From positions 1 through 33,894 of the forward strand of contig JAFSJE010000085.1 in assembly GCA_017439425.1 (NCBI GenBank): DNA of 33,894 bases. The letters run 5' to 3'. The DNA is from Oscillospiraceae bacterium (GTDB lineage Bacteria > Bacillota > Clostridia > Oscillospirales > Oscillospiraceae). Positions 26,319 through 32,717 of this stretch are shown here, in pieces (position 1 is the first letter of the stretch; the number at the start of each line of letters is the position of its first letter). Below the pieces are notes generated by a model, which was not told the origin of the DNA, did not search any database, and saw only the letters and a list, made by a program, of their open reading frames with translations. The translations under genes were made by a program, and so were the position numbers.

Positions 26319-26903
26319 TTATATCTTTACGCTAAACAGACCGTGGCGGTTGCAGTATGCAAAGAGCCTCTGAACGCGGCTCGTTTTGAACCGCGCCTCG
26401 CACCCGCCCTCAGGGTAAAGCTTCACTATGCCGACGCCGTTATCCGTCACCGCCGCAAGGAACGAAACGTAGTGCTCCCGCTCCATAGGGTGAGCGAGCG
26501 TGACGTAGTATTCGTCCTCGACGACCTCAATAGAGATGCGGTGCTCACCTTCCGGCGCCTCCGGCTCGAGCGGCGGCAGAGTCACGCCGCAGCAGGATAT
26601 GAGCGTCTCGCCTGCGGAAGTTATCACGTTTCCGCACACCGGGCAGACGTAAAACCGGCATTTTGCCATATTGAACGCGCGGTTTCGGTTTCGGATATCC
26701 TCGCCGGAAATGAGCTCGATGACCGATATTCCGAGCGCGCCGGCAATCGGCTCGAGAAGGCTCACGTCCGGAAAGCCCTGACCCGTCTCCCACTTTGATA
26801 CGGCCTTGCCGCTGACGGAGAGGCGGTTTGCGAGCTCCTCCTGCGTCAGTCCCTTCTCCTCGCGCAGTCTGCGAATTGCCGCGCCCGTGACGTAGTTATT
26901 CAT
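26319..26903 (-). CDS. XRE-family regulator fused to a desulfoferrodoxin/superoxide reductase-like domain
   Basis: With the ATG at 26903 (AAAGGAG 8 bp upstream) the protein is 194 aa. Residues 6-61 are an XRE helix-turn-helix (LTQEELANRLSVSGKAVSKW). Residues 82-105 resemble the desulforedoxin site, with C87/C90 (CPVC) and C104/C105 (CCG). Residues 118-194 match the superoxide reductase fold: H121 (EHRISI), H138 (AHPM), H144 (REHYV), C184 and H187 (YCNRHGLF). These align with the four His plus one Cys that bind catalytic iron in superoxide reductases, and spacings 138-144 and 184-187 agree with the enzyme. The residue before the first His is Glu, not the usual catalytic Lys. It may be a redox- or superoxide-sensing regulator, or a DNA-tethered reductase. 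Confidence 0.88.
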   Translation of the reverse strand: MNNYVTGAAIRRLREEKGLTQEELANRLSVSGKAVSKWETGQGFPDVSLLEPIAGALGISVIELISGEDIRNRNRAFNMAKCRFYVCPVCGNVITSAGETLISCCGVTLPPLEPEAPEGEHRISIEVVEDEYYVTLAHPMEREHYVSFLAAVTDNGVGIVKLYPEGGCEARFKTSRVQRLFAYCNRHGLFSVKI

Positions 26904-26949
26904 ATAATCAGCTCCTTTTGTCTGAGAATAACACGCCATCTGATAAAAA

Positions 26950-26974
26950 GCTACCCACGCTGCGTGGAGTCAGC
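26950..26974 (-). terminator. Terminator of the XRE-TPR gene
   Basis: GCTACCCACG (26950-26959) pairs with CGTGGAGTCAGC (26963-26974) with two bulged bases. On the minus strand the stem is followed by TTTTT. The stem includes the stop codon of the XRE-TPR gene. Confidence 0.65.
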
Positions 26975-27992
26975 TAAGTGCCTTTATTTTCTCTTTTATT
27001 CTCCGAACCTCATAGCCCTCGGTGAGGCTCCAGTCATCAGCCAGAAGTTCGAGAGTCGCCTTATACGCCTCGATTGCCGCCGCCTTGTCGCCCTTTATCT
27101 CGGATATCTGCGCAATGCTGAGAAGATTGTCGGTGTATCGCGGCTTTTCGGTCTGAAGGTCGAAGGCACGCTTATACTCGGCTATCGCCTTATCCCACTC
27201 GGCACGCTTTGCGAAGTTATCCCCTCTCGAGGAGTACACAAACCAAATATCCGGATACTTTTCAGCCATTTTATCCCAAAGCTCGTCGGCTTTTTGGCGG
27301 TTGCCCGCCTTTTCCTCTATCCAGCCGGCGTACAGCTCCACGTGGTAGCTGTCACGCACGCGCTTCATGCGCTCCAGATACTCCCTTGCCTCCGTAAGTC
27401 TGCCGTCAACGATGAGCTTGTCGAGAAGCCAGAGATACCCCGGTGCGTAGTTCGGATTTTTCTCGATGAATGCTTTATAGAAATCTATATATTCCGCGTG
27501 ATTTGAAACGCACCAGTCCCAGACGTGGCCCTTTACCGCCATATTGTAGCAGGAGTGATTGTCCTTTTTCTCCGGCTCAAGCTCCAGCGCCTCTTTTGCG
27601 TACCTCTCCGCCTCGGCGTAGTATTTATCGCCGCGCGCTAACATAAGGTCGCACAGCATCGTGAGGCATCGGCCGCGGGTTTCGGGCTTACTGAGCCCAT
27701 CTGTCAGCACCCGTCTTGCGTAAGCGTAGTTCTCGTCCGACATATCGGCGCCCTCGTCGAGCATAGTTTCAATCCGGCTGATATGGCGTTCTTCCGTGAG
27801 GTCAAACAGCTCGTCGAGCGTTACGCCGAGTGTTTCGGACAGCACCGGAAGCGCCGTTATATCCGGAAATCCCGCTCCCGTCTCCCATTTTGACACCGCC
27901 TGCGCCGTAACTCCCACAGATTCAGCCAGCGCCTCCTGCGTGAGATTGTGGCGGAGCCTCAGCTCCTTTATCTTTCTGCCCATGTTTTCCAT
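26970..27992 (-). CDS. XRE-family regulator with TPR-like C-terminal domain
   Basis: The start at 27992 (MENMGRKIKEL) lies 9 bp after AAAGGAG; an ATG three codons upstream would have no spacing. The 340-aa protein has an N-terminal helix-turn-helix (about 4-60, LTQEALAESVGVTAQAVSKW) almost parallel to that of the neighbouring XRE-superoxide reductase protein. Then come helical repeats from about residue 85 to the end, with TPR-like units such as AEAERYAKEALELEP, EWDKAIAEYKRAFDLQ and DKAAAIEAYKATLELL. The helical part may bind a peptide or protein partner. Its own terminator and the 66-bp gap suggest it is separate from the downstream regulator gene. The target genes are unknown. Confidence 0.88.
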   Translation of the reverse strand: MENMGRKIKELRLRHNLTQEALAESVGVTAQAVSKWETGAGFPDITALPVLSETLGVTLDELFDLTEERHISRIETMLDEGADMSDENYAYARRVLTDGLSKPETRGRCLTMLCDLMLARGDKYYAEAERYAKEALELEPEKKDNHSCYNMAVKGHVWDWCVSNHAEYIDFYKAFIEKNPNYAPGYLWLLDKLIVDGRLTEAREYLERMKRVRDSYHVELYAGWIEEKAGNRQKADELWDKMAEKYPDIWFVYSSRGDNFAKRAEWDKAIAEYKRAFDLQTEKPRYTDNLLSIAQISEIKGDKAAAIEAYKATLELLADDWSLTEGYEVRRIKEKIKALS

Positions 27993-28028
27993 GTGCCTCA
28001 TCTCCTTTCGCGAATATCATAAGCCGAA

Positions 28029-28058
28029 AAAGAGCCGATCTCCAGCGACCGGCTCTTT
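28029..28058 (-). terminator. Terminator of the GTPase-NYN gene
   Basis: AAAGAGCCG (28029-28037) pairs with CGGCTCTTT (28050-28058). On the minus strand the hairpin runs into TTTTTCGG, immediately after the stop at 28063. Confidence 0.8.
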
Positions 28059-28062
28059 AGTT

Positions 28063-30654
28063 TTACTCATCCTTCGGTTGAGCATTTCTGAACGCATCCT
28101 CCATCGGGCGCGTGCGATTAGCGAGGTTATTGCGGCGGATAAAGTCCGCAATATCGTTCTTTGCAAGGTCTATTTCGCCCTTCAGCTCAAGCGCCGTAAT
28201 TCTCAGAGCGCCGGAGCCGAGGATTATCATCTGCTCCGGACCGTCGGAGGTGGCAACGTAGACCTTGTGCGTCTTCGACAGCTTGTGCGCCGTGCGCTCG
28301 ATATATGTGTCGGCGGTCTCCGCTTCTTTTGTGTAGACCACGGAAATGCCGTTGTAGGTCTCAACCTTTTCAACGCCGTCCTTTACCTTATAAGCGTCGA
28401 AAACGAGGATAATCTCGTTCTTCTTAACGCCCCGGAAGTCAGATAGCGTGTCCATAAGCATTTTGCGCGCCGCGTCAAGTGATTCTGTGCTGACCTTTTT
28501 AAGCTCCTCCCACGCGAAAATGACGTTGTAGCCGTCCACGAGCAGGTATTCAGCGCCGGTAAAACGGGTTTTTATCTCAACCTTTTTATCGTCGAGGCTT
28601 GTCCTCGGTTCGTACTTCCTCCGCTCCTCCTTCGGAACGAAGTCACGGCGCTTCACTTCTCCGTAAGTGCGCTCGAAAATGCTCATAAGCTCGCTGTCGC
28701 CCGCCGGTGCGGTGCTTCTCCGAATTTCCGGAGCTTTTTCCGGCTCCTTTTCAGCTTTCAGAACACTCTCAAGGTGCATATGCGCCTTGACCTCATTCCA
28801 CGGCACAACGTAACCCGCTCCGTGCGCGCAGAAAACGCTGTCCGCAGAATTCGCCATATCGCGTTCAGGGTCGTAGCCGATTGCCTCTATAACTTTTTCG
28901 GCGCTTTTGCACTCGCGGTAGCCGCCGTAGGCGAGGGACAGTCTGCCAAGCCCGCGCGTGTACTCGGTCACCGCCGCGGCGTAGCCCGAGAGCGCAGATA
29001 CCGGCGCCGAGCCGGTCAGTATGCAGGTATCGCCCGCATTCTCCGGCGCGCTGTACTCACCGCCGAACATATCGAGGTCGGTCATCGCCCTGCCCATATT
29101 CTGCACCGGCAGAGTGAGCGTAAAGTCGTACCACGGCTCGAGAAGTACGCTCTCCGCCTCCATAAGTCCCTCGCGCACCGCGCGATAGGTCGCCTCGCGG
29201 AAGTCTCCGCCCTCTGTGTGCTTTAAGTGAGCCCTGCCTGCGGCGAGGGTCAGCCGCACATCGGTTATGGGCGAGCCGGTCAGAACTCCGAGATGCTGTT
29301 TTTCCGCTAAATGTGTGAGAATGAGCCTCTGCCAGTTGCGGTCAAGCTCGTCCTCCGGCACGACAGAGTCTATCTCAATTCCGCTCCCGCGCGGAAGCGG
29401 TGATATTATGATATGCGCCTCGGCGTAGTGCCTCAGCGGCTCGTAATGACCCACGCCCTCAACGGTGTTCTTCACCGTTTCACGGTAGATTATCCCGCCC
29501 TCGCCGAACCCGACGTCGAGCCCGAAGCGGTCGCGCAGTGAGCGCGCTATGACCTCAGTCTGCACCTTTCCCATGAGCCTTAGACTTATGCGGCCGGTTT
29601 CCTCGGAGTAGCTCACTCGCAGAAGCGGATCCTCCTCCTCAAGTATGCGGAATTTCGGCAGCGCAGTCGAGGCGCTCACGTCCTCGGGCAGTATCGCGTC
29701 GAAGCTCATGACCGGCTCTAAATATGGCTCCTCAGCGTTATCCTCAACGCCGAAGCCCTCGCCGATGAAGCTTGAGCTAAGCCCCGTCACGGCGACGACG
29801 TCGCCCGCCTCGGCGGAATCTGCCAGCGTGTACTTTTCGCCGGAATAGAGGCGTATCTGGTCGATTTTCTCGCCGCCGAGAATATCCTTGACCCGTATTT
29901 CGCCGCCCGTGAGCTTCATAAACGTCATCCGCGCGCCCATTTTGTCGCGCATGATCTTAAAAACCCTTGCGCCGAGGTTCGACGAGCGCGACGGGGTCGG
30001 CGCACAGCGGTCGATTGCTGTGAGAAGCTCCTGAACTCCCTCGCTTTTGAGCGCTGAGCCGAAGAGCACCGGGAAAACCTCGCGGTTTTCTATTGCGAGG
30101 CGCAGATTATAGTCCGAAACCGCGCCGGTGGCGAGATACTCCTCCAGCGCTCCTTCGCTTTTTTCAGCGACAGCCTCAGCCCAGTCCCCATTGAGGGCGA
30201 CGAAGCCATCGTCAAGCGAGCGCAGAGAGGTCATCACCATACTGCGGTCGAAGCCCGCAAGGTCGGTCTTATTTACGAAAACAAAAACCGGAACGCGGTA
30301 TTTTTTAAGAAGCTCCCATATCGTGCGCGTGTGGCCCTGAACGCCGTCGGTGCCGCTAAGAACAAGAACCGCCATATCGAGCACGGAAAAAACACGTTCG
30401 GTCTCGCCCGAAAAATCGGCGTGACCGGGCGTATCAAGGAGCGTAAGCTCCGTTTCTCCGAAGCTGAGGCGCGCCATCTTGGAGAAGATCGTAATGCCGC
30501 GTTCGCGCTCCATCGCGTTATTGTCAAGGTAGGCGTCGCCGTGGTCTACTCTGCCGAGCCTGCGTATCGCTCCGGAGGCGTACAGAAGCGCCTCGCTGAG
30601 CGTGGTTTTGCCGGCGTCGACGTGCGCGACAAGTCCGCAGACGAGCTTTTTCAT
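28063..30654 (-). CDS. EF-G/TetM-like translational GTPase fused to a Rae1/YacP-like NYN ribonuclease domain
   Basis: The 863-aa protein is a two-part fusion. Residues 1 to about 640 are a translational GTPase of the TetM/TetO ribosomal-protection branch: AHVDAGKTT (10-18), ERGIT (51-55), DTPGH (74-78), NKTD (128-131) and SALK, then domains II-V, with EPWYDFTLTLP as in TetM domain V. The domain IV tip that displaces tetracycline in TetM is a short HTEGGDF segment here, so drug resistance is not implied. After a charged linker (about 640-697), residues 700-840 match YacP/Rae1: LLVDGYN with D707, LVFDAYKVK with D753, YTKEAETAD with D782 and ATSDGPEQ with D804. Rae1 cuts mRNA in the ribosomal A site, the same site this GTPase branch enters. 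GAGGAGG precedes the ATG. Monocistronic. Confidence 0.9.
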   Translation of the reverse strand: MKKLVCGLVAHVDAGKTTLSEALLYASGAIRRLGRVDHGDAYLDNNAMERERGITIFSKMARLSFGETELTLLDTPGHADFSGETERVFSVLDMAVLVLSGTDGVQGHTRTIWELLKKYRVPVFVFVNKTDLAGFDRSMVMTSLRSLDDGFVALNGDWAEAVAEKSEGALEEYLATGAVSDYNLRLAIENREVFPVLFGSALKSEGVQELLTAIDRCAPTPSRSSNLGARVFKIMRDKMGARMTFMKLTGGEIRVKDILGGEKIDQIRLYSGEKYTLADSAEAGDVVAVTGLSSSFIGEGFGVEDNAEEPYLEPVMSFDAILPEDVSASTALPKFRILEEEDPLLRVSYSEETGRISLRLMGKVQTEVIARSLRDRFGLDVGFGEGGIIYRETVKNTVEGVGHYEPLRHYAEAHIIISPLPRGSGIEIDSVVPEDELDRNWQRLILTHLAEKQHLGVLTGSPITDVRLTLAAGRAHLKHTEGGDFREATYRAVREGLMEAESVLLEPWYDFTLTLPVQNMGRAMTDLDMFGGEYSAPENAGDTCILTGSAPVSALSGYAAAVTEYTRGLGRLSLAYGGYRECKSAEKVIEAIGYDPERDMANSADSVFCAHGAGYVVPWNEVKAHMHLESVLKAEKEPEKAPEIRRSTAPAGDSELMSIFERTYGEVKRRDFVPKEERRKYEPRTSLDDKKVEIKTRFTGAEYLLVDGYNVIFAWEELKKVSTESLDAARKMLMDTLSDFRGVKKNEIILVFDAYKVKDGVEKVETYNGISVVYTKEAETADTYIERTAHKLSKTHKVYVATSDGPEQMIILGSGALRITALELKGEIDLAKNDIADFIRRNNLANRTRPMEDAFRNAQPKDE

Positions 30655-30686
30655 TCGACTCGCCTCCTCTTCGTGATATTTTCCCT

Positions 30687-30716
30687 ATTGTAACACACTT
30701 TTGAAAGTGCTACAAT
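30687..30716. promoter_or_regulatory. Symmetric overlapping divergent promoters
   Basis: On the plus strand TTGTAA (30688-30693) and TACAAT (30711-30716) are 17 bp apart, reading toward udp. On the minus strand TTGTAG (30715-30710) and TACAAT (30692-30687) are also 17 bp apart, reading toward the GTPase-NYN gene. Each -10 coincides with the other's -35, so the two cannot be occupied at once. Confidence 0.7.
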
Positions 30717-30737
30717 AAGAAAAAAGGGGGCAGTAAA

Positions 30738-31484
30738 ATGAGCGAACAGTACCACATAAAGCTTAATCCCGGCGACGTCGGGCGCTATGTCATTCTCCCC
30801 GGCGACCCCGGAAGATGCGAAAAGATAGCGCAGTATTTCGACGACGCGAAGTTTATAATGCAAAACCGCGAGTACGTCACCTACACCGGAACGCTTCTCG
30901 GCGAGAAGGTCAGCGTTTGCTCCACCGGAATCGGCGGTGCTTCCGCCTCTATCGCTATGGAGGAGCTGATGAACGTCGGCGCGGACACATTCCTGCGTGT
31001 CGGTACCTGCGGCGGCATAAACACGAAGGTCGTCGCCGGCGATATCGTTATCGCCACCGGCGCTGTCAGAATGGAGGGCACAAGCCGCGAGTACGCGCCG
31101 ATCGAATACCCCGCAGTGCCGGATTTCGGCGTAACGCAGGAGCTTGTCGAGGCGGCGAAAAGCCTCGGGCTCACCTATCACACCGGCGTCGCCCAGTGCA
31201 AGGACAGCTTTTACGGTCAGCACGCGCCGGAAAAGAGTCCGGTTTTCTACGAGCTTCTCAATAAGTGGGAGAGCTGGAAGCGGCTCGGCGTGATGTGCAG
31301 TGAGATGGAGTCTGCCGCGCTCTTCTGCGTTGCTGCTGCGAGAGGCGTGCGGTGCGGAAGCGTGTTTCAGGTCGTCTGGAATCAGGAGCGCAAAAATCTC
31401 GGCATCGACGACCCGGAGTGTCACGATACCACCGGCGCAATTAAATGTGCCGTCGAAGCGATAAAGCGAATGATTAAAGGGTAA
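30738..31484 (+). CDS. udp: Uridine phosphorylase-type nucleoside phosphorylase
   Basis: The 248-aa protein belongs to the PNP/UDP phosphorylase family (hexameric NP-I type): [14 protein letters not shown] at the N-terminus forms the phosphate site, [16 protein letters not shown] and RVGTCGGI are family signatures, and SEMESAALF binds the ribose. The [10 protein letters not shown] segment sits where uridine phosphorylases hold their pyrimidine-specific residues. It splits uridine and phosphate to uracil and ribose-1-phosphate, for nucleoside salvage in the cytoplasm. It is single, with AAGGGGG 8 bp before the ATG, a very short predicted leader (about 15 nt) and a strong terminator. Purine specificity is less likely but not excluded. 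Confidence 0.87.
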
Positions 31485-31516
31485 AATAATCCGCCTCGTC
31501 ACTGAGGCGGATTATT
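31485..31516. terminator. Bidirectional terminator between udp and fprA
   Basis: AATAATCCGCCTC (31485-31497) pairs perfectly with GAGGCGGATTATT (31504-31516), a 13-bp stem with a 6-nt loop. The convergent genes stop at 31484 and 31527. Confidence 0.9.
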
Positions 31517-31526
31517 TGTCAATTAT

Positions 31527-32717
31527 TTACTTCGCCAGCTCGTCGGCGAGAGCGTCGAGCTCATGCTCCTGCTCCGGCTTCAGCGCGCTCTTCGCGGTGA
31601 CTACGCTCTCGATAAGCTCCACATTCTTCGCGCCCTCGAGGATCTTTTTGAGGGTGTTCGCGGCACTGGGCGCCCATGAGCCGTTCTGCATGATCGCAAC
31701 GCGGCGGTTCTGGAATGCGTGCGCCATGAGATCGTGAAGCGCGTCCTCCATCTTAACGAACGCGCCGCCGTTATAGCTCGCGGAGGCGAAAACAAGGCGG
31801 TCATATCTGAACGCCGCGGCGACGATCTCGCTGACGTGAGAAACCGAGGAGTCGATAACTCTCGTCTTTACGCCCCTCTCGCGGAGCTTGACCGCAAGCG
31901 CCATCGCCATATTCTCGGTGTGGCCGTAGATCGAGCCGTAAACTATGCAGACGCCCTTTTCCTCGGGCTCGTAGGAAGCCCACTTTGTGTACTTATCGAG
32001 GATAAGCCCGAGATTTTCTCTCCACACCGGGCCGTGAAGCGGGCACAGCATCGCGATATCGAGCTTCGCCGCCTTCGCAAGGACAGCCTTGACCTGCACG
32101 CCGTATTTTCCGACGATGTTTGCGTAGTATCTTCTCGCCTCGTCGAGGTAATCGCCCTCGAAGTCGACCTCATCGGCAAAGATTGCGCCGCCGAGAGCGC
32201 CGAATGTGCCGAATGCGTCGGCGGTGAACATGACCTTTTCGGCCTTTTCATAGCTCATCATTACCTCGGGCCAGTGTACCATAGGCGCCATGGTAAAGGT
32301 AAGCTCGTGCTTGCCGAGTGATAGCGAGCTGCCCTCCGCGACGACAGCAGCCCTTGCGGAAACGTCTGTATTGAAGAACTGAACGATCATATCGAGCACC
32401 TTTTTGTTGGCGACGATCCGAGTATCGGGGTACTTCTCAAGCAGGCGCATGAGCGAGTAGCTGTGATCGGGCTCCATGTGGTGAACTACGACGTAGTCGA
32501 GCGCCCTTCCGCCGAGCGCGTATTCAAGGTTTTCAAGCCAGTCTTCGACGATGGACTTGTCCACGGTGTCCATAAGGCAGGTTTTCTCATCGAGAATGAG
32601 ATAGGAATTGTATGTAACGCCGTTCGGAATGGGATAAACTCCCTCAAAAAGCGCCGTGCGGCGATCGTCACCGCCGACGTAGATGATCGACTCGGATATT
32701 TTGCGGATAGTCTGCAT
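31527..32717 (-). CDS. fprA: Flavodiiron protein (A-type flavoprotein, FprA-like)
   Basis: The 396-aa protein has an N-terminal metallo-beta-lactamase-like di-iron domain with all ligands: H80, E82, D84/H85 in HHMEPDHS, H148 (MVHWPE), D167 (FTADAFG) and H228 (CPLHGP). From about residue 255 a flavodoxin domain follows (CIVYGSIYGHTENMA binds FMN phosphate). Flavodiiron proteins reduce oxygen to water or nitric oxide to nitrous oxide in strict anaerobes; here electrons would come from a rubredoxin-type partner encoded elsewhere. It has its own promoter and terminator. AAGGAG precedes the ATG. Choice between oxygen and NO as physiological substrate is not visible. Confidence 0.95.
   Translation of the reverse strand: MQTIRKISESIIYVGGDDRRTALFEGVYPIPNGVTYNSYLILDEKTCLMDTVDKSIVEDWLENLEYALGGRALDYVVVHHMEPDHSYSLMRLLEKYPDTRIVANKKVLDMIVQFFNTDVSARAAVVAEGSSLSLGKHELTFTMAPMVHWPEVMMSYEKAEKVMFTADAFGTFGALGGAIFADEVDFEGDYLDEARRYYANIVGKYGVQVKAVLAKAAKLDIAMLCPLHGPVWRENLGLILDKYTKWASYEPEEKGVCIVYGSIYGHTENMAMALAVKLRERGVKTRVIDSSVSHVSEIVAAAFRYDRLVFASASYNGGAFVKMEDALHDLMAHAFQNRRVAIMQNGSWAPSAANTLKKILEGAKNVELIESVVTAKSALKPEQEHELDALADELAK

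Follow-up and report, generated by a model that had tools for sequence, protein, structure and literature searches.

The 33,894-nucleotide stretch of DNA analysed here (hereafter the window; contig JAFSJE010000085.1 of assembly GCA_017439425.1, from an Oscillospiraceae bacterium) carries a gene in which a translational GTPase of the EF-G/Tet type is joined to a Rae1/YacP-type nuclease domain. The gene occupies positions 28063-30654 of the minus strand as a single intact frame that runs from ATG to TAA, encodes 863 amino acids and has no internal stops. By hmmscan, the protein begins with an EF-G/Tet-type GTPase of five domains and has a Rae1/YacP NYN domain towards its end; a conserved extension and then some 75 residues of linker lie between the two. 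Its features are as follows.

28063..30654, minus strand: complete fusion gene, 863 amino acids (frame and Pfam hmmscan)
29998..30642, minus strand: GTPase domain, residues 5-219 (GTP_EFTU PF00009, E 1.1e-49)
29761..29970, minus strand: EF-G domain II, residues 229-298 (EF-G_D2 PF22042, E 3.1e-5; 24.4 bits, under the cut-off of 27)
29503..29715, minus strand: EF-G domain III, residues 314-384 (EFG_III PF14492, E 3.3e-8)
29155..29493, minus strand: EF-G domain IV, residues 388-500 (EFG_IV PF03764, E 1.4e-15)
29194..29235, minus strand: domain IV tip loop, residues 474-487 (RAHLKHTEGGDFRE), a subfamily signature (alignment of fused and unfused rows)
28900..29148, minus strand: EF-G domain V, residues 503-585 (EFG_C PF00679, E 1.2e-15)
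28765..28899, minus strand: subfamily C-terminal extension, residues 586-630, with SVFCAHGAGYVVPWNEVKAHMHL (alignment)
28546..28764, minus strand: charged linker, residues 631-703, with a conserved short motif around E655 (ELMSIFERTYG; alignment)
28099..28545, minus strand: Rae1/YacP NYN domain, residues 704-852 (NYN_YacP PF05991, E 1.3e-47)

The GTPase domain contains AHVDAGKTT, RGIT, DTPGH, NKTD and GSALK, which we take to be the motifs G1 to G5, respectively. With these motifs and domains II to V in order, domain II scoring just under its own cut-off, the body is that of an EF-G-type translational GTPase. The NYN domain reached 162.3 bits against a PF05991 cut-off of 24.6. Used alone as a query, it retrieved two PDB sequences, 5MQ8 and 5MQ9 (‘Uncharacterized protein YacP’; E ~1e-27, chain residues 3-141), both of which we take to be Rae1/YacP of Bacillus subtilis. 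An initial annotation, made from the letters of the window, had described one 863-residue frame with a GTPase followed by a YacP/Rae1-like domain, and had singled out four acidic residues, D707, D753, D782 and D804. The domain searches bear out this architecture and the likeness to Rae1, the four residues lie where they were placed, and the strand, which had been left unstated, is minus.

Fused and stand-alone NYN domains were compared in alignments of 42 fusions (40 picked for spread of families, the window protein and that of Monoglobus) and 46 stand-alone Rae1 rows (from 60 loci, after 9 fused ones were set aside and with 5 escaping the extraction pattern). D707, N710, D753, D782, E786, D804 and Q808 are invariant in all 42 fusions and all 46 stand-alone rows, and R818, invariant in the stand-alone rows, is arginine in half of the fusions. 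The two groups part at the C-terminus. A basic motif, [LF][EKQR]x[WIML]R[RKL], occurs in 40 of the 46 stand-alone proteins and 0 of the 42 fusions, the window protein included, making it a common, non-universal trait of stand-alone Rae1. The motif of 5MQ8 is FEKWRR and includes R166. In the available passages of PMC6613710, Rae1 is called an A-site endoribonuclease, and Rae1 R166P appears among efp suppressors taken as loss of Rae1 or YacO function. The fused NYN domain thus appears to have kept the conserved core and to lack the tail to which a harmful B. subtilis change maps, and we infer that in Rae1 this tail serves to dock the nuclease on the ribosome.

The GTPase portion was aligned with those of unfused relatives (39 rows, leaving out L295, which has a broken frame) and with TetM, TetO and EF-G. 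The domain IV loops of the 42 fusions follow the patterns GxGH[FY]EPLxHYAEV (loop I), HxGxLTG (loop II) and [RK]AHxKHTxGGDFR (loop III), and the 39 unfused relatives share these patterns with a few more exceptions. At the tip, T480 is present in 42/42 fusions and 39/39 unfused rows, and D484 and R486 in 41/42 and 39/39. Loop III reads YYSPVSTPADFR in TetM and TetO and YHEVDSSEMAFK in the EF-G of the window genome; the window protein has HLKHTEGGDF in place of the TetM/O/S-type pattern YSPVSTPADF. The window genome encodes two further EFG_IV proteins, and the tip differs from these two EF-G-like proteins as well as from TetM and TetO. Domain V is followed, in fused and unfused rows, by an extension of the form SxFCxxGxG..V.W.......MH that does not occur in the TetM, TetO and EF-G rows. 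Family scores agree with this separation. Among NCBIfam models, tet_protect scores best for the window protein (E 1.1e-113), yet its 380.6 bits fall far short of the cut-off of 775, as do the 379-425 bits of four other subfamily members, while TetM (877.4) and TetO (870.7) pass; against the NCBIfam EF-G model (TIGR00484) the window protein scored 254.2 bits, with a cut-off of 659.4. These GTPases are a distinct subfamily, marked by a domain IV tip of its own, whose members occur both fused and unfused. The initial annotation had noted a tip unlike that of TetM and doubted an antibiotic resistance role; the alignment agrees on the first point, and the tip loop and the tet_protect score uphold the doubt for tetracycline.

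Spread was surveyed in genome samples, in which fusion was scored by frame length and the counts are raw, with kinship ignored. Among 199 genomes of the phylum sample, NYN_YacP was matched in 110 (109 over the cut-off) and 13 carry the fusion. A profile spanning domain IV to the extension of the GTPase subfamily (profile A1) exceeded 250 bits in 15 genomes of this sample, followed by a gap down to 100 bits, and these 15 are the 13 fusions and two unfused frames. The class sample (393 genomes) has NYN_YacP in 250 genomes (249 over the cut-off) and a subfamily GTPase in 163. Of the latter, 29 were scored as unfused (that of G259 in a short frame of 293 amino acids) and 134 were taken as fused, a count that includes cut, split or unclear copies (such as those in G103, G228, G241, G291 and G350) and that for many genomes was read from the GTPase frame by itself, the NYN_YacP matches tabulated for this sample being the best 150. 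In G291 one contig holds the GTPase and NYN domains in frames that differ in length, which may reflect a copy that is broken or mis-sequenced. NYN_YacP is present in all 134 genomes of the fused class and in 22 of the 29 with an unfused GTPase. The fusion is spread over many families of the class sample, and at least three families (f42, f43 and f48) hold both fused and unfused states. NYN_YacP is also present in 29 of 33 further genomes from the genus of the window, and a scan of named genomes found at least 80 loci, 45-56% identical, in Oscillospiraceae, Ruminococcus, Lachnospiraceae, Eubacterium, Fusibacter and others. The 200 genomes of the class of G607 (taken as Bacilli because the Rae1 of G563 is close to that of B. 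subtilis) hold 19 subfamily GTPases, all unfused in frames of 650-705 amino acids, and NYN_YacP in 195 genomes.

An assembly frameshift joining two genes, or absence of the fusion from relatives, had been named at the outset as grounds for abandoning the annotation. The first was rejected, because the fusion turns up again in samples of the genus, the class and the phylum and in numerous Clostridia that bear names, and the second does not hold in either the class or the phylum sample. The expected occurrence in Clostridia under a ‘translation factor GTPase’ label is also borne out, the label ‘translation factor GTPase family protein’ having been seen in one annotated record (Monoglobus).

In a tree of 85 rows, TetM, TetO and TetS form a branch of their own (support 100), and two changes between the fused and the unfused state are required. 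The trees are quick ones with many weak forks; a second was made without U_L190 (a long branch) and EFG2_own. A tree in which all 42 fused GTPases form one clade was not rejected, and a search for it gave the better fit (p value of the approximately unbiased test, p-AU, 0.922). A single origin of the fusion is the simplest reading. Loss of the NYN domain in Ligilactobacillus salivarius was considered and set aside: the first tree nests its unfused protein among the fusions and the second grouping needs two changes, but the single-clade tree fits better (p-AU as above). This unfused GTPase (L142:4986-6920) is encoded on the L. salivarius plasmid p612A beside a 30S S14 gene, and is automatically labelled as TetM/W/O/S family though its tet_protect score is 379 against the cut-off of 775. 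Among the nuclease domains, one stand-alone NYN groups with the 42 fused NYNs in a 43-row set (98). A stand-alone NYN_YacP at L059:1483-2004, in genome G265, resembles the fused type by eye (FAW, NYQGFKKC) and keeps a C-terminal LEKIR; the GTPase of this genome is unfused and lies on another contig, an arrangement that is perhaps close to the pre-fusion state.

Sampled genomes carry a fused or a stand-alone Rae1, and hardly ever both. In the phylum sample, each genome with the fusion (13 of 13) has a single NYN_YacP match. In the class sample a further complete NYN_YacP was found in one of the 134 fused genomes (G339), the extra matches in G177, G230, G264 and G425 being weak or fragments, and NYN_YacP occurs in 116 of the 259 other genomes. 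No second NYN_YacP was found in the window genome, which is 95% complete in 89 contigs. Ten stand-alone Rae1 loci were inspected, and by eye a sigH-like gene comes next in 10/10 and an rlmB-like gene before in 8/10. In the window genome, rlmB (TIGR00186, 250 bits) is followed by an unrelated frame of 732 amino acids and an EF-G-like gene, with neither rae1 nor sigH at that place. The fusion seems to stand in for a separate Rae1 nuclease. A coupling of unfused GTPase and stand-alone Rae1 through co-occurrence was also considered; it held in 2/2 genomes of the phylum sample and was not upheld in the class sample (22/29, only slightly above the base rate of 250/393 overall) or in the class of G607 (19/19 against 195/200).

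At the locus itself, an AGGAGG at 30668-30663 lies upstream of the fusion gene (by eye), and one feature follows it directly.

28033..28050, minus strand: terminator-like hairpin directly 3' of the fusion gene (consensus match only)

Shuffled versions of the region have 3.3 terminator-like sites on average and the region itself has 7, which makes the hairpin at 28050-28033 weak evidence. The fusion gene is flanked by a divergent uridine phosphorylase gene (30738-31484) and by a gene for a helix-turn-helix (HTH) and tetratricopeptide repeat protein (26970-28001). A frame of 283 amino acids at 30651-31502 (minus) is probably spurious, since it overlies the phosphorylase gene and has no family match in Pfam or NCBIfam. 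The 83-base gap between the fusion and phosphorylase genes (30655-30737) contains a near-palindrome, TTGTAA-17-TACAAT on the plus strand and, by eye, TTGTAG-17-TACAAT on the minus strand, which may serve both genes as a symmetric divergent promoter or operator. Further out on the minus strand, 26319-26939 encodes a protein of 206 amino acids with an N-terminal HTH and a C-terminal desulfoferrodoxin-like stretch (TIGR00320, E 2.8e-11, under the cut-off), possibly a redox-sensing regulator, and 31527-32717 encodes a flavodiiron-type protein of 396 amino acids with ODP beta-lactamase and flavodoxin domains. A survey of 392 neighbouring frames at 81 loci (80 from named genomes and the window, many ending at contig edges) found no neighbour family recurring at a fixed place; the commonest was response-regulator-like, scattered over 12 loci, and the next was found at 6. 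An ABC-F-like ATPase gene, identified by eye, lies near the fusion in 4 of the 81 loci (L202 and three others). An anti-phage defence protein was rejected as an identity for the fusion, with no PADLOC family matched and no neighbour family at a fixed place.

We tentatively favour the explanation that the fusion has taken the place of Rae1 as a nuclease which a translation factor delivers to the mRNA in the A site, and to this, as a reading of sequence comparisons, we give a little under an even chance. The EF-G-like body would bind ribosomes with a vacant A site, its tip reaching into the decoding centre. Once GTP is hydrolysed, the body would leave or rearrange, and the tethered NYN domain could then reach the A-site codon through the linker and cut the mRNA there. 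The steps would be sequential because the GTPase body and the NYN domain would hardly fit the A site together. In this way the fusion would take over the task of Rae1, the translation-dependent decay of mRNAs on which ribosomes have paused, and the GTPase would provide the docking in place of the C-terminal tail of Rae1. The initial annotation had suggested that the GTPase may bring the nuclease to stalled ribosomes, and the near-exclusion of stand-alone Rae1 and the missing C-terminal motif would fit such delivery; the delivery, the order of events and the position of the cut are what we infer. We consider doubtful a more far-reaching form, a GTP-driven endonuclease that has replaced free Rae1 in much of Clostridia and whose GTPase subfamily would recognise an A site that is vacant or abnormal and then pass the mRNA on to the nuclease in its own chain. 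If true, the fusion would be a bacterial no-go-decay factor with ribosome sensor and cutter in one protein, and its unfused sisters would make up a class of A-site factors so far unrecognised. A natural fusion of an A-site nuclease with an EF-G-like GTPase offers a ready-made probe of the route by which Rae1 finds and enters the A site and of the way in which bacteria destroy the mRNA of stalled ribosomes.

Several observations weigh against delivery by the GTPase. The exclusion counts are raw, ignoring kinship, and G339 carries both a fused and a further complete NYN_YacP. Six of the 46 stand-alone rows also lack the C-terminal motif as defined, and the change from arginine to proline in R166P could act through unfolding. 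No conserved neighbourhood pointing to mRNA decay was found at the 81 loci. In the class of G607 all 19 genomes with an unfused GTPase have NYN_YacP, but the base rate of 195/200 leaves no signal of coupling. Finally, genomes without any NYN_YacP (G084, G087, G113, G127, G234, G259 and G343) hold 7 of the unfused GTPases in the class sample (29 in all), and the GTPase therefore has a function for which Rae1 is not needed.

This last point leads to the strongest alternative, in which two independent ribosome functions share one chain: the NYN domain would be the self-sufficient Rae1 of the lineage, the GTPase would do something else, and the fusion would only co-localise or co-express them, with no GTP-driven delivery. 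We regard this as possible, on the unlikely side. Besides the seven genomes without NYN_YacP, it draws on the conserved tip and extension that unfused GTPases share with the fusions, and on a linker that is long and variable (residues 628-703, 76 amino acids in the window and 68-134 across the 42 fusions). Yet E655 of that linker is invariant in 42/42 fusions, the fusion persists over many families of the class, and the fused NYN lacks the C-terminal motif of 40/46 stand-alone rows, as though it docked in another way.

Antibiotic resistance by ribosome protection, in which the GTPase would dislodge tetracycline or a comparable A-site drug and RNA on drug-stalled ribosomes would be cut by the nuclease, is improbable in our estimation. 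It is the idea of Atkinson 2015 (in the passages available of PMC4342817), and the EF-G/Tet fold, the rank of tet_protect as best NCBIfam model and the automatic TetM/W/O/S label of one unfused member speak for it. Opposed to this are the tet_protect scores (381 bits for the window protein and 379-425 for four members, with TetM at 877 and TetO at 871 passing the cut-off of 775), a tip loop of HTEGGDFR where TetM has VSTPADFR, and the lack of any neighbour family common to more than 12 of the 81 loci. The 83-base gap to the divergent gene also leaves little room for a TetM-type leader gene, a 117-base leader being annotated before tet(M). Very improbable is a role in rRNA or tRNA maturation, in which the GTPase would bind a subunit at a late stage of its assembly and the rRNA would be trimmed by the NYN domain, although this would accord with the older prediction for YacP domains that PMC4342817 cites from Anantharaman and Aravind 2006 and with the rlmB-like rRNA methylase gene that precedes 8 of the 10 stand-alone genes inspected.

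Returning to factor-delivered cleavage, the protein can be set beside systems already described. The architecture is not new. The initial annotation knew of no description of the fusion, but Atkinson 2015 had reported YacP-NYN domains in ‘Tet’ proteins from ten clostridial species and proposed a role in antibiotic resistance (PMC4342817). No further paper describing the fusion was recognised among titles, abstract openings and passages of PMC6613710, PMC10100781, PMC11780869 and PMC1780047, and other Rae1 papers may mention it. With the same architecture (an EF-G/Tet body and a YacP-like NYN in one clostridial protein) and the same bacterial group, the window protein very probably belongs to the family of those Tet-NYN proteins, matched here by the description in the available passages and not by sequence (PMC4342817). 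Relative to the ten species and resistance role given there, the present analysis adds a separate GTPase subfamily with its own tip that also occurs unfused, a wider spread, the near-exclusion of free Rae1 and the missing C-terminal motif. Proteins labelled as tetracycline resistance or ‘translation factor GTPase’ would thus include a separate subfamily, which bears on the annotation of resistance genes. Rae1 itself was reportedly described in 2017 (Leroy et al.), after the report of the fusion. B. subtilis Rae1/YacP (5MQ8, 5MQ9) resembles the fused NYN domain in sequence and has the same acidic residues, but it is a single-domain protein of 170 residues with a C-terminal FEKWRR, which the fusions lack. 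TetM and TetO share EF-G-like domains, GTPase motifs and about 30% identity with the window protein; they differ in tip loops, C-terminal extension and family score, and with TetS they occupy a separate branch. Closest to the GTPase portion are the unfused members of the subfamily (about 650 amino acids; class samples and L. salivarius), which have the same tip loops and the FCxxGxG...W...MH extension and end after it, with neither linker nor NYN domain.

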